Shown piece by piece: positions 8,955-13,551 of a stretch of DNA of 35,332 nucleotides. Under the pieces are notes generated by a model. That model saw only the letters and a program-made list of their open reading frames with translations, did not search any database and was not told where the DNA came from. Where the stretch lies: positions 1 through 35,332 of the forward strand of contig JAFGPZ010000098.1 in assembly GCA_016935935.1 (NCBI GenBank). Reading direction: 5' to 3'. Source of the stretch: Deltaproteobacteria bacterium (lineage in GTDB: Bacteria; Desulfobacterota; Syntrophia; Syntrophales; UBA2210). How positions within the stretch are numbered: the stretch's first letter is position 1; each line of letters begins with the position of its first letter. Made by a program: the position numbers and the translations under genes.

Positions 8955-10067
8955 CTACCAGAATATCGATCCTTTTATGGCCTTTAAGAGCCTTATTATG
9001 TCATCGGGATAAATGTCGCCGATGTTTCCGATTCTAAAGGTGTCGTGCATAGTCACTTTACCCGGATATATGACGAAACCCTTTGTTTTCAGCTTGTTGT
9101 AGAAGTCTTTGAAGTTGTATTTATCACTTTCCGGGTTGTGGAATGACGTAATAATCGGTGAGTGTACCTCGTCAGGGAGAAGAGTTTTAAACCCAAGTTT
9201 TCTCATTCCTTCCACAAGTGTTCTCTGGTTGGTGCTGTATCTTTCGTGCCTCTTTTCAATCCCGCCTTCTTCTTCCAGTTCCAGCATCGCCTGGTAAAAG
9301 GCCCTAACAATGTGGGTGGGTGAGGTGTAACGCCACTTTCCTCCGTCCGCTTCCATCGCCTGCCACTGGTCATAGAGATCAAGGGAGAGAGAACGGGAGT
9401 ATCCCTTTATCTTATTTATTTGCTCCTGCCTGGCTATGATAAAACCAAAGCCGGGGACTCCCTGGATGCACTTGTTTGAGCTTCCAACACAGAAGTCGAT
9501 ATTCAGATCGGAAATATCCATTGGGACTCCGCCAAAGCTGCTTATGGTATCGGTGAAGTATACCTTTCCGTATTTCTTCACTATCTGGCCTATCGCGTCT
9601 ATGGGATTCATAATGCCGGTAGTCGTTTCACAGTGTACGACGGCAACGTGAGTTATTTCCCTGTCTTCCTTCAAGGTCGCCTCCAGCTTTTCCAGGTTCG
9701 GCCTTGCCAGTTCCCCGCTGTCATGAACAACGGTCTTTATCCTGAGAGTTTTAGAGATCAGTGCGATCCTGTCACCGTAGGCGCCGTTAGCGAGAACGAG
9801 AAGCTTTCCCTCCGGGGGCATTATGGAACCAACAATCGATTCAACGGAAAAAGTGCCGCTTCCCTGCATAAGAACTGTCGTGTAATCTGCCGTTTTTCTT
9901 GTGGCCAGGGCGAGGAGCTTCTCCCGCAAATTTTCCACCAGTGTCTTGTAGTCATCGTCCCATGTACACCAGTCTCTGAGCATAACGGCCTTTACCGTTT
10001 TAGTTGTCGATAATGGTCCCGGTGTCAATAGAAGATAGGGATTGTCAGGTATGTATTTTGTATCCAT
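8955..10067 (-). CDS. phnW: 2-aminoethylphosphonate:pyruvate transaminase
   Basis: PhnW moves the amino group of AEP to pyruvate, giving phosphonoacetaldehyde and L-alanine in the cytoplasm. The 370-residue class V aminotransferase is full length and matches the family closely: LLLTPGPLSTTKTVK and CTWDDDY at the N-terminus, VLMQGSGTF, HCETTTGIMNPID, the PLP Lys in SSNKCIQGVPGFGF (about K199), SRSLSLDLYDQW, KWRYTSPTH, HSPIITSF, and the C-terminal GFVIYPGK and FRIGNIG. I chose the ATG at 10067, which is preceded by GGGGGCG; an in-frame ATG five codons earlier has no ribosome site. It is the firmest anchor for calling this region an aminophosphonate cluster. No phosphonatase gene (phnX) follows it, which is unusual. 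Confidence 0.95.
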   Translation of the reverse strand: MDTKYIPDNPYLLLTPGPLSTTKTVKAVMLRDWCTWDDDYKTLVENLREKLLALATRKTADYTTVLMQGSGTFSVESIVGSIMPPEGKLLVLANGAYGDRIALISKTLRIKTVVHDSGELARPNLEKLEATLKEDREITHVAVVHCETTTGIMNPIDAIGQIVKKYGKVYFTDTISSFGGVPMDISDLNIDFCVGSSNKCIQGVPGFGFIIARQEQINKIKGYSRSLSLDLYDQWQAMEADGGKWRYTSPTHIVRAFYQAMLELEEEGGIEKRHERYSTNQRTLVEGMRKLGFKTLLPDEVHSPIITSFHNPESDKYNFKDFYNKLKTKGFVIYPGKVTMHDTFRIGNIGDIYPDDIIRLLKAIKGSIFW

Positions 10068-10141
10068 GGAACACGCCCCCATAATTTTGTACGTGTTATA
10101 AAAATGTTGTGAACTGAGCAACAGACTTATTCCCTGCTGTT

Positions 10142-11644: not shown

Positions 11645-12667
11645 TTACTTCTTACTCTGCTTCTTAAGAAAATCGCGGGGGTCAACGATATCTTCGACGA
11701 TTCTCCAGCCTGTTCCGTACATCTTCTGTTTTTCTTCAAAGCCCTTCTTCCATTCTTCGGGCGTCCTGTACTCGGCGGCAGAGGCAAATTGCTTCCTTTC
11801 CTCAAGAGTAGGCACCGCACGATCTTTGGGACCATCGTAATCCTCTTCAGGCGTAAGATCTTCGCCGAATCTCCGTTTGGGTTCCCTCTCCACTTCCTCG
11901 CACCAGTGAGCGCCGGCGGCAAAGGACCTTGTAATTGCAACAATAACCCATGTGGCGTCAGAGGAAAATCCCAGGTCCATCATGGTGGCGCCTATGGCTC
12001 CGAGGAGATCGAGGTCTACGGGCCTGTCGCTCTTCTTCTGGACTGCCGCAACAACTTCCCTCATGAAGGCAATGTATCTGCCAGCGACTCCCAGTTTTTC
12101 AGCACGGGCGAAGGTCCGCTTCGCGGCCGGATCTTTCAGCATCAAGTCGGAGACACCAAGGTGAACTGCTTCGCTATTTTCTCTTGCAAGCAATTCGGCG
12201 GCTTCTGAAATGGATTTTCCCTCTTTATCCACCAGGGAGAGATATTTGTCGAGCATCTTCCCGAAATCGTCAAAAGCCCCGTATGTGTGACCGAAGGCGA
12301 GTATGGAAGCGCCGCACGCCTGGGTCAGGAGGGTTGTGCTGCTTCCCGTAATGCGGGCGATTGCGGCTGGTGAAGACAAACCGTCGTCGAGAGAAAGAAT
12401 CATGACGTAATTGAGCATCTGAGTTTCTTCTATAAGAGGTATTCGGGACTGGAAGTCAACGAAGATTATATCGGGGAGTCCGTATCCGGCTTCAACCAGT
12501 TCGGTGGTGTCGTAACCCCTTGTTACGATCCGGTGGACATTTTTATATGCAATCTCTGATACCCATTGAAAAGGAGCCCGCGTTTCGTCCTTAGGAACAG
12601 TGCCCCGTTCTCTCTTTGAATAATCGTAATTTAACCTCGGATCATCTAAATTACCTATAACGCCCAT
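11645..12667 (-). CDS. Divergent citrate-synthase-fold protein B (citryl-CoA lyase-like)
   Basis: This 340-residue protein resembles the citrate synthase/citryl-CoA lyase family. The region of the first catalytic His is visible (LAFGHTYG, about H127). The segment that normally reads GFGH...DPRA is instead HLGVSDLMLKDPAA, with Val (about V172) in place of the second catalytic His. The usual catalytic Asp aligns by eye with a Leu in DLLGAIG, although D218 and D220 lie just upstream. I chose the ATG at 12667, which has GGAGAG upstream and overlaps the end of protein A's gene by 13 bases; the frame is open further upstream only inside that gene. The coupled overlap suggests A and B form one heteromeric enzyme. 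The reaction is unknown; CoA-thioester chemistry is likely. Confidence 0.8.
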   Translation of the reverse strand: MGVIGNLDDPRLNYDYSKRERGTVPKDETRAPFQWVSEIAYKNVHRIVTRGYDTTELVEAGYGLPDIIFVDFQSRIPLIEETQMLNYVMILSLDDGLSSPAAIARITGSSTTLLTQACGASILAFGHTYGAFDDFGKMLDKYLSLVDKEGKSISEAAELLARENSEAVHLGVSDLMLKDPAAKRTFARAEKLGVAGRYIAFMREVVAAVQKKSDRPVDLDLLGAIGATMMDLGFSSDATWVIVAITRSFAAGAHWCEEVEREPKRRFGEDLTPEEDYDGPKDRAVPTLEERKQFASAAEYRTPEEWKKGFEEKQKMYGTGWRIVEDIVDPRDFLKKQSKK

Positions 12668-13551
12668 TTCTTCCACTCTCCTTCCTCTTTCTGTTTCTTG
12701 GCGTATTCCTGTCTTTCCGCCTGGCTCGGAACATCTCTGTCTTCTGGACCTACATATTTTATCATGGAAAGATCCAGCATCTGTACCATCGGTTCGCTTT
12801 TCGACGCTGCCCAGGCGCGCCCCTTTTTCATCTGATAGAGGGCATGAGCGGCGCAGCTGAAACCTCTGGTGACGCAACCGATACACCAGGCGGCATTAGG
12901 CGCGAATCCCATTTCGGCAAGAGCGGTATTCCCAGCACCGATCATATTGACGGATACATAGGATTTACCCTCTTTTTTTCTTCGCTCGTTGAAGTGTTTT
13001 TCTATTGACCTTTGAAGTTCCAGATAAACTCCGTTTATACCGAGCTGTTCGTGCTTGATGTGTGTCGGTTCCGCCCTGGGGTCTCCGTCAAGATGCTGTG
13101 GCTGCCCCATGCCCATGACGGCTAATCCGGCATCCATATGCTCATCAACGAGTGTCTTGCCCATCTCCTCCAGGGATATGCCTTCCACCCGGGCGCGTTC
13201 TATGTACTTATGCATCATATATCCATGGGCGGCTCCCGGTCCGTGGGCGCCGCCGAAGGTCATGACGGCCGCCGCCGCCGCCGCAGGAATATTAGGTCTT
13301 CCACTGATTACGGCAAAGGCCGATGCCGCCGAGGGTGACATGGAATGTTCCAGGAATTCCCCCATTTCATATTCGAGCATCTTTTCCTCTTCTTCGGTGG
13401 GAAGCCTCTGTTGAAACAGCACAAACATGGCGTCACAAAATGTATACCCGGCCTCCGCAAGATCGCTTACATTGTATCCGCGCAGGACGGTCTTCTCTTC
13501 CGTCTTGTAGGAAATCGATGTTTTCCTGCGGAAGAATGATTCTCTACTCAT
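12655..13551 (-). CDS. Divergent citrate-synthase-fold protein A
   Basis: This 298-residue protein is shorter than citrate synthase (about 430) and near citryl-CoA lyase size. The first catalytic His region is conserved (GGAHGPGAAHG, H103). The second reads GMGQPQHLDGDPRA, with Gln at the His position (Q150) and another His three residues later. The third reads VNMIGAGN, with no Asp. The start has an excellent AAGGAGGAG ribosome site and the gene is first of the pair. Its partner B is encoded immediately downstream with overlap, followed by the acylating aldehyde dehydrogenase and phnW. Seen: a CoA-binding fold with altered catalytic residues. Inferred: a subunit acting on the acyl-CoA made by the dehydrogenase. 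Confidence 0.8.
   Translation of the reverse strand: MSRESFFRRKTSISYKTEEKTVLRGYNVSDLAEAGYTFCDAMFVLFQQRLPTEEEEKMLEYEMGEFLEHSMSPSAASAFAVISGRPNIPAAAAAAVMTFGGAHGPGAAHGYMMHKYIERARVEGISLEEMGKTLVDEHMDAGLAVMGMGQPQHLDGDPRAEPTHIKHEQLGINGVYLELQRSIEKHFNERRKKEGKSYVSVNMIGAGNTALAEMGFAPNAAWCIGCVTRGFSCAAHALYQMKKGRAWAASKSEPMVQMLDLSMIKYVGPEDRDVPSQAERQEYAKKQKEEGEWKKWAL

Follow-up and report, generated by a model that had tools for sequence, protein, structure and literature searches.

The window analysed here is a 35,332-nt stretch of DNA from a deltaproteobacterial genome assembly (contig JAFGPZ010000098.1), and its (−) strand carries an aminophosphonate gene cluster. In this cluster, genes for a CoA-acylating aldehyde dehydrogenase (ALDH) and for two citrate-synthase-fold proteins, here called A and B, stand beside the transaminase gene phnW. 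A sequence-only reading had proposed that these proteins convert phosphonoacetaldehyde to phosphonoacetyl-CoA and then break its carbon–phosphorus (C-P) bond. Among the 91 open reading frames (ORFs) of at least 80 amino acids (aa) in the window, 28 were scanned with Pfam and 21 with NCBIfam, while the remainder are mostly overlapping readings. The core of the cluster is as follows:

12655..13551, (−) strand: A, citrate-synthase/citryl-CoA-lyase-fold subunit, 298 aa (PF00285, 1.1e-17)
11645..12667, (−) strand: B, second citrate-synthase-fold subunit, 340 aa, starting MGVIG (PF00285, 1.8e-7)
10142..11551, likely start ATG at 11533, (−) strand: CoA-acylating ALDH (PF00171; NF047625 SauS, 469.3 bits)
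8955..10121, likely ATG near 10067, (−) strand: PhnW, 2-aminoethylphosphonate–pyruvate transaminase (TIGR02326, 571.9 bits, above the cut-off of 400.8)
7420..8778, (−) strand: PbfA 1, class III pyridoxal-phosphate-dependent lyase (NF049939, 712.9 bits, above the cut-off of 525)
5928..7415, (−) strand: PbfA 2, tandem second copy, listed start probably too long (NF049939, 651 bits, above the cut-off of 525)

The B and A genes overlap by 13 nt, the ALDH and PhnW genes are spaced by 20 nt, and coordinates, Pfam and NCBIfam agree that phnW, an acylating ALDH and two overlapping citrate-synthase-fold genes, as first proposed, are real. The chemistry of PbfA leads to phosphonoacetaldehyde, as described in PMC8154272. 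With PhnW and both PbfA copies above their cut-offs, three window enzymes are expected to make phosphonoacetaldehyde, whose sole visible consumer in the window is the ALDH. No PhnX or PhnY was found in the window, and no HAD-fold or PhnA-type protein occurred among its scanned ORFs; a translated search of the window for the HAD family gave one 42-residue match at chance level (E 0.007), and the single alkaline-phosphatase-superfamily protein (25238-26944) is a phosphoglycerate mutase (TIGR01307, over cut-off). The absence of PhnX and PhnA noted by the sequence-only reading thus stands as a statement on the window alone and not on its genome.

The ALDH is CoA-acylating by family and, by sequence comparison, lies nearest to SauS, whose substrate is the sulfonate analogue. 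Specifically, its SauS score (cut-off 600) exceeds that for AdhE (354.8 bits) by 114 bits; the acetylating model TIGR02518 gave 299 bits and TIGR03250, the non-acylating phosphonoacetaldehyde dehydrogenase, only 23 bits, in agreement with the earlier assignment of the enzyme as acylating. Cys248 is invariant in 17/17 proteins, and the closest solved structure is an acetylating succinate-semialdehyde dehydrogenase. Judging from the SauS-type relationship and the gene context, the product would be phosphonoacetyl-CoA.

Both A and B found their best PDB match in citryl-CoA lyase 6hxp (1.2e-22 and 5e-14, respectively), and PF00285 assigns them to the same fold; none of the citryl-CoA-lyase NCBIfam models was passed (at most 112 bits, with cut-offs of 193-409). 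Aligned to 6hxp, A retains the His of the GxHG motif (His103); Gln150 and Asn208 of A are invariant. Its second His is replaced by Gln (GxGQPQH in 54/54 A proteins), and the place of the catalytic Asp, which we take to be Asp375 of pig citrate synthase, is filled across the 54 loci by Val (33) or Ile (19), with L057 and L058 ending or diverging earlier. At the three citrate-synthase catalytic places, the window's B protein carries Tyr, a loop with Ser, and Leu. Among the B proteins (n = 49), Leu takes the place of the Asp in 43, and the first His is Tyr or Phe in 42 and His in 1, the search pattern leaving 6 unassigned in each case. Since the catalytic Asp is gone from A and from most B, neither protein should deprotonate acetyl-CoA in the manner of citrate synthase. 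The loss of the Asp fits C-P cleavage, which would yield the enolate directly, as decarboxylation does. A Horner-Wadsworth-Emmons-type condensation by A/B was also considered and set aside, as it needs a base that is missing in A and most B.

Relatives of A and gene order across genomes

A search with A returned 524 homologues at E ≤ 0.001, and among the 120 matches listed all had at least 74% identity; no relatives turned up in a scan of viral contigs. A scan of GTDB genomes yielded at least 60 A loci, every one from a metagenome-assembled genome (MAG). They span Desulfobacterota, Planctomycetota, Chloroflexota, Spirochaetota, Verrucomicrobiota, Latescibacterota, Gemmatimonadota, Bacteroidota and Alphaproteobacteria, with one further locus each in a 'Muproteobacteria' bin and an archaeal bin; these are presumed affiliations, based on record names. 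The record names point to sediments, groundwater and animal guts as habitats. Use of the module need not be confined to anaerobic conditions, given that Rhodobacteraceae, Rhodospirillales and Gemmatimonadota MAGs carry A too.

Next to A, the gene arrangement is non-random. Counting loci with sufficient downstream sequence (at least 1.2 kb for B, 50 loci; 3.5 kb for ALDH, 41; 5.5 kb for HAD, 32), B adjoins A in 49 of 50, ALDH lies downstream of A-B in 37 of 41 (the others being L011, L013, L024 and L058), and a HAD-fold protein of ~235 aa (hereafter HAD) is encoded at the A locus in 24 of 32. The L024 genome holds ALDH, HAD and a PhnA-like protein on a different contig (L084). The order A-B-PhnW-ALDH-HAD occurs in L037, L038, L051 and L055; in L038 and L051, A was masked by an antisense frame in gene calling. 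An ORF on the strand opposite to A (cluster c18; L051:9884-10708, L038:9869-10708, L007 and L010), without a Pfam match in L051, has coordinates that overlap A and is probably an antisense reading, not a gene. The sequence-only reading had missed HAD, which is present almost constantly as the fourth partner and is also a candidate for the C-P enzyme. Profile searches of 49 A-carrying genomes (L043, L046, L048-L050, L053, L054, L057, L058 and L060 left out) matched HAD in 38, each at 232 bits or more. HAD is thus seen in relatives; in the window's own genome it was not observed.

We then compared 155 genomes from the class of the window's nearest relative (L001), in which A was present in 11, ALDH (called above 680 bits) in 13, HAD in 14 and PhnW over cut-off in 14; three more genomes held only an ALDH paralogue (523-545 bits). 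HAD was found in 13/13 genomes with ALDH vs 1/142 without (Fisher p 4.9e-18) and in 10/11 with A vs 4/144 without (p 6.5e-12), and PhnW in 9/11 with A vs 5/144 without (p 9e-10); HAD and PhnW also co-occurred (p 3e-14). The tests take no account of relatedness among the genomes, which are also incomplete. The anticipated co-occurrence of A and ALDH with PhnW is seen genome by genome; for the set of A, ALDH, HAD and PhnW, p ranges from 9e-10 to 5e-18 in the class. Only G173, 1 of the 14 PhnW genomes, has PhnW without A, HAD and ALDH, while in G009 and G175 the module is present but PhnW does not reach its cut-off. In the four genomes that have HAD but not A, other parts of the module lie close to the start of a contig (B in G157 at 126; PhnW and ALDH in G152 at 692 and 1866; ALDH in G177 at 958; HAD itself in G179 at 3), so A may be cut off in them.

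The four proteins also diverge together. When 20 loci were compared pair by pair (near-duplicates L048-L050, loci without all four genes and loci with short ALDH dropped), the identities of A, B, ALDH and HAD correlated with Spearman coefficients of 0.49 to 0.86, values that no more than 2 of 999 permutations reached. Conservation is highest in A (mean identity of 75% vs 47% for HAD). The search for PhnW covered the class of the nearest relative and the fetched A loci; among the latter, PhnW homologues are present in 24/60 and PbfA in 10/60. Other neighbours fit phosphonate use beyond the need for phosphorus: 7 A loci carry PHO4 phosphate transporters, L001 and L018 have alanine dehydrogenase, and MFS proteins resembling organophosphate antiporters also occur nearby.

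Two further neighbourhoods were observed. In spirochaete loci L041, L044 and L047-L050, a citrate synthase gene is divergent from A-B, an arrangement that would suit the entry of module-derived acetyl-CoA into citrate. Paired MtmB-family genes (monomethylamine methyltransferase, PF05369) lie beside PhnW/PbfA/A/B genes in L016:7154-9955 and L035:525-4858, and L035 additionally has an MttB-family gene (PF06253) there; corrinoid demethylation of N-methylated aminoethylphosphonate is a possible role.

A candidate route through phosphonoacetyl-CoA

Taken as a whole, A-B-ALDH of the window and HAD of its relatives would form a transferable catabolic module for phosphonoacetaldehyde. We tentatively favor, at somewhat less than an even chance, the reading that the module makes phosphonoacetyl-CoA, that A/B cleave its C-P bond and that HAD completes or assists the reaction. 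Sequence comparison supports the pathway, within which cleavage by A/B is the conjectural step. PhnW and PbfA would supply phosphonoacetaldehyde, as their families indicate, and ALDH would turn it, with NAD+ and CoA, into phosphonoacetyl-CoA. An A/B heteromer would then split the C-P bond, the acetyl-CoA enolate leaving phosphorus to give acetyl-CoA and phosphate. HAD might finish or aid this step, e.g., by hydrolyzing an O-phosphorylated product, which is the least certain part of the scheme. Overall, aminoethylphosphonate would yield acetyl-CoA, NADH and phosphate, and pyruvate would receive the amino group.

We tentatively place C-P cleavage on A/B because A is the most conserved component, because its fold is built around acetyl-CoA enolates, and because PalA and phosphoenolpyruvate (PEP) mutase provide a precedent. 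In these two, the isocitrate-lyase superfamily has been recruited for C-P chemistry. The proposed logic is like that of PalA, in that an enolate-forming, enolate-stabilizing C-C lyase fold would have been taken for C-P cleavage; A/B differ in having another fold, a CoA thioester as the presumed substrate and a heteromeric makeup. The relationship of PalA to PEP mutase is stated in PMC10574752.

A variant of this scheme would make A/B a mutase: within phosphonoacetyl-CoA, the phosphoryl group would be shifted off the carbon and onto the enolate oxygen, after which HAD would hydrolyze the resulting acetyl-CoA enol phosphate. PEP mutase, working towards PEP, is a precedent for such a move from carbon to oxygen. 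The joint occurrence of A/B and HAD, the loss of the Asp and the missing general acid of HAD would all be accounted for by the variant. The enol phosphate of acetyl-CoA would be a high-energy compound that, to our knowledge, has not been described, and we regard the variant as quite improbable.

The HAD proteins themselves bear on which partner breaks the bond. Their nucleophile Asp and other motifs are intact, three Arg are invariant between motifs I and II (15 proteins), and the residue two places after the nucleophile is Gly in 19, Val in 5, Asp in 2 and Tyr in 1 of 27 proteins, i.e., no general acid is conserved. Phosphonatase has Ala at this place. No conserved Lys was found at the phosphonatase-like place in the aligned HAD proteins. 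Given that no general acid is conserved, HAD may have a substrate whose leaving group, for instance an enol, can depart unprotonated. In an alternative reading, the Asp nucleophile of HAD would attack phosphonoacetyl-CoA and break its C-P bond, the thioester enolate being the leaving group, and A/B would carry out another acyl-CoA step before or after. The invariant Arg residues, the missing general acid and the constancy of HAD (38/49 A genomes, all 13 ALDH genomes of the class) would suit this alternative. Yet HAD has no phosphonatase-like Lys, and a structural model of the L010 protein (predicted local distance difference test [pLDDT] 91) is nearest to N-acylneuraminate phosphatase, YfnB and dehalogenases, with PhnX not among the best 50 matches; moreover, A, far more conserved than HAD, would be left without a role. 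On balance, we consider cleavage by HAD unlikely. The near-constancy of HAD suggests either a second step or cleavage by HAD itself, and the data accommodate both.

Genome L035, which had seemed complete and to have A/B without HAD, was dropped as evidence that HAD is dispensable: its ALDH match stops after 206 residues, and the stretch is probably misassembled or deleted. A second HAD-fold protein lies beside ALDH in some Deltaproteobacteria (L001:13457-14110, beta-phosphoglucomutase group, under cut-off; L081:9937-10653, HAD by Pfam).

Known C-P-cleaving enzymes among the carriers

The 49 A carriers were profiled for PhnX (TIGR01422), PhnA, PhnJ and PalA. Over curated cut-offs, PhnX was found in 0/49, PhnA in 6/49, PhnJ in 1/49 and PalA in 0/49, leaving 42/49 with none; the predicted co-occurrence of the module genes without known C-P enzymes thus has exceptions in only 7/49. 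At 0.001, the PhnX model matched 47/49 carriers but also 14/14 control genomes, as it sees any HAD. Looser limits were set at 95 bits or more for PhnX-like proteins, 1e-10 for PhnA and PhnJ, and 1e-60 for PEP-mutase/PalA-type proteins. At these limits, 40/49 genomes lacked a PhnX-like match, 36/49 lacked a PhnA-family match (13 had one, 6 over and 7 under cut-off), and 30/49 had no PhnX-like, PhnA or PhnJ match. Across the class, no PhnX or PhnA passed its cut-off, and 1 PhnX match appeared at 1e-20. The cleanest case is L055, a single-contig genome (7.0 Mb) with A-B-PhnW-ALDH-HAD and no PhnA, PhnJ or PalA match at the limits used; its only PhnX match is a partial HAD match of 58 bits, and the assembly has frame breaks (an EamA match is split over two frames).

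Several observations weigh against C-P cleavage of phosphonoacetyl-CoA by A/B. The activities of A, B, ALDH and HAD are predicted from sequence, the ALDH misses the SauS cut-off, and the AlphaFold model of A (39 sequences) reached a pLDDT of 49.8 and was not used. HAD has no match in 11/49 A genomes and would be superfluous if A/B alone hydrolyzed the C-P bond. Only 25/60 A loci (16/34 of those of at least 12 kb) contain PhnW or PbfA. Absences carry little weight, given that all of the A loci (at least 60) come from MAGs. PhnX-like proteins of 97-125 bits occur in 9/49 genomes, inside the cluster in L016 and L040; PEP-mutase/PalA-type proteins occur in 4/49, none over cut-off; and PhnA-like proteins (89-222 bits) occur in 10/155 class genomes, each of which also has A, ALDH or HAD. 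Finally, in L013, A (fused to a PF01467 cytidylyltransferase-like domain) and B lie in a PEP-mutase cluster, with ALDH and HAD not near. The PEP-mutase-like protein there (313 bits, cut-off 320) contains the EDKxxxxxNS motif and is fused to a nucleotidyltransferase domain, and the stretch (L013:1969-12476) also encodes two radical SAM proteins that bind B12, along with a transaminase that passes the PhnW-AepZ cut-off. It looks like a phosphonate biosynthesis cluster. The A-cytidylyltransferase fusion recurs in 4 of the 120 A homologues listed (P0068, P0077, P0081 and P0084).

The PhnA-like proteins deserve particular attention. The nearest relative, L001, has an A that is 98% identical to that of the window, and its 60,685-base contig with A/B carries the run SDR-PhnS2-PhnU2-PhnT2-HAD-PhnA-like-LysR-DUF47-PHO4-DUF47 (L080), in which SDR, PhnS2, PhnU2 and PhnT2 are 88-91% identical to the window genes. 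In L080, HAD starts 490 bases past PhnT2. The window ends 335 bases beyond its PhnT2, where ~110 bases align to L080 (77%), the others do not, and a frame of another kind runs off the edge. The PhnA-like protein of this relative scores 200 bits against TIGR02335 (cut-off 407.55), has its nearest solved structures among phosphonoacetate hydrolases (174 and 168 bits; next family ENPP, 33) and aligns with an over-cut-off PhnA through the ADHGM and T[AS]KxKL segments, which presumably have functional roles. Across the range of the module, the expectation that no phnX or phnA lies elsewhere holds for most of the genomes examined. In the lineage of the window, the PhnA-like gene of the nearest relative speaks against it, and 'no C-P enzyme' should not be assumed there outside the window.

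The PhnA-like protein may serve to salvage free phosphonoacetate. It could also be the main enzyme in the lineage of the window, breaking the bond of free phosphonoacetate while A/B or another enzyme removes or transfers CoA from phosphonoacetyl-CoA; A/B would then not be a C-P enzyme. The latter alternative, which we judge distinctly unlikely, would account for the PhnA-like gene beside HAD on the A/B contig, for the similarity to phosphonoacetate hydrolases and for the restriction of PhnA-like proteins to module carriers (10/10 class genomes, in 8 of which the gene is directly beside HAD); L021 likewise has PhnA over cut-off beside HAD. It fares poorly outside this lineage, where the 36/49 A genomes without a PhnA-family match include L055. 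It would also waste energy by making a thioester only to hydrolyze it, and PhnA may merely rescue phosphonoacetate that arises from thioester hydrolysis or import.

The PhnX-like proteins suggest another order of events, in which HAD or a PhnX-like enzyme would cleave phosphonoacetaldehyde, ALDH would make acetyl-CoA from the acetaldehyde, and A/B would be a condensing or citryl-CoA-lyase-type enzyme. Below cut-off, such proteins are encoded at L016:4844-5590, L040:2-622, L061 and L064; the L016 protein has a Lys aligned with that of PhnX, which presumably forms the Schiff base. These cluster genes, the acetaldehyde dehydrogenases within the ALDH superfamily and the citrate synthase gene next to A in the spirochaete loci would all be accommodated. 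Nevertheless, we give this order very little probability: ALDH is nearer to SauS than to AdhE, most genomes (40/49) have no PhnX-like match of 95 bits or more, and A and most B lack the Asp with which to deprotonate acetyl-CoA.

Flanking genes and comparison with known systems

The remaining genes of the cluster include transporters on both sides of the core:

15940..19233, (−) strand: TRAP transporter DctM, DctQ and DctP (PF06808, PF04290, PF03480)
14786..15880, (−) strand: zinc alcohol dehydrogenase (best NCBIfam TIGR03366 'phosphonate catabolism associated alcohol dehydrogenase', 311.2 bits, cut-off 328.1)
13773..14645, (−) strand: EamA-type membrane protein (PF00892; sole NCBIfam match at 1e-40 TIGR03340 'phosphonate utilization associated putative membrane protein', 143.8 bits, cut-off 288)
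4544..5704, (−) strand: saccharopine-dehydrogenase-like protein (PF16653, PF03435)
336..4200, (−) strand: PhnS2-PhnU2-PhnT2-like ABC transporter, aminoethylphosphonate uptake (best NCBIfam matches PhnS2, PhnU2 and PhnT2, all under curated cut-offs)

The zinc alcohol dehydrogenase could feed the route by converting an alcohol to phosphonoacetaldehyde. Relatives of the saccharopine-dehydrogenase-like gene (cluster c24) lie near A/B in L002, L018 and L036, and L080 has an 88% identical copy; its assignment as the racemase PbfF was ruled out, as PbfF belongs to PF02826 according to PMC12366243. Beside the phosphonate genes, positions 20498-35323 encode a fatty-acid oxidation set (acyl-CoA ligases, enoyl-CoA hydratase, acyl-CoA dehydrogenase, electron transfer flavoprotein and an Fe-S/CCG membrane protein) and a LysR regulator whose best and second-best NCBIfam matches, NF040786 and the aminoethylphosphonate-associated TIGR03339, are both under cut-off.

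Set against PhnWX and PhnWYA, the cluster shares the PhnW start, the accessory PbfA, similar transporters and an outcome of a C2 unit plus phosphate; it differs in that the usual enzymes are replaced by the A/B pair of citrate-synthase fold, the acylating ALDH and, among relatives, another HAD, and the product would be acetyl-CoA. A shares its fold and one active-site His with citryl-CoA lyase (6hxp) and citrate synthase, whereas A/B have lost the Asp and the second His and comprise two unlike subunits from overlapping genes. SauS, the nearest named family of the ALDH, catalyzes the sulfonate counterpart of the reaction proposed here; the ALDH scores under its cut-off and lies in a phosphonate rather than a sulfonate cluster. 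HAD has the fold of PhnX and likewise no conserved general acid, but it lacks a conserved Schiff-base Lys, and in NCBIfam it matches a different HAD subfamily best.

The known hydrolytic C-P enzymes PhnX, PhnA and PalA are substrate-specific, the other routes being C-P lyase and oxidative cleavage (in part after PMC10574752). The term 'phosphonoacetyl-CoA' occurs once in the accessible part of PMC12871164, as the predicted product of an unrelated enzyme, and a literature search for the term returned no other paper. Titles and abstract openings contained no description of the A-B-ALDH-HAD module, which is not proof of its absence from print; the fact that the A loci (at least 60) are all from MAGs may be why the module went unseen. 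The reading we favor predicts a concrete metabolite, phosphonoacetyl-CoA. If true, the CoA-thioester route would be a further hydrolytic solution to breaking the C-P bond, one that would release phosphate from a very common natural phosphonate and save the energy of the thioester, which matters to anaerobes.

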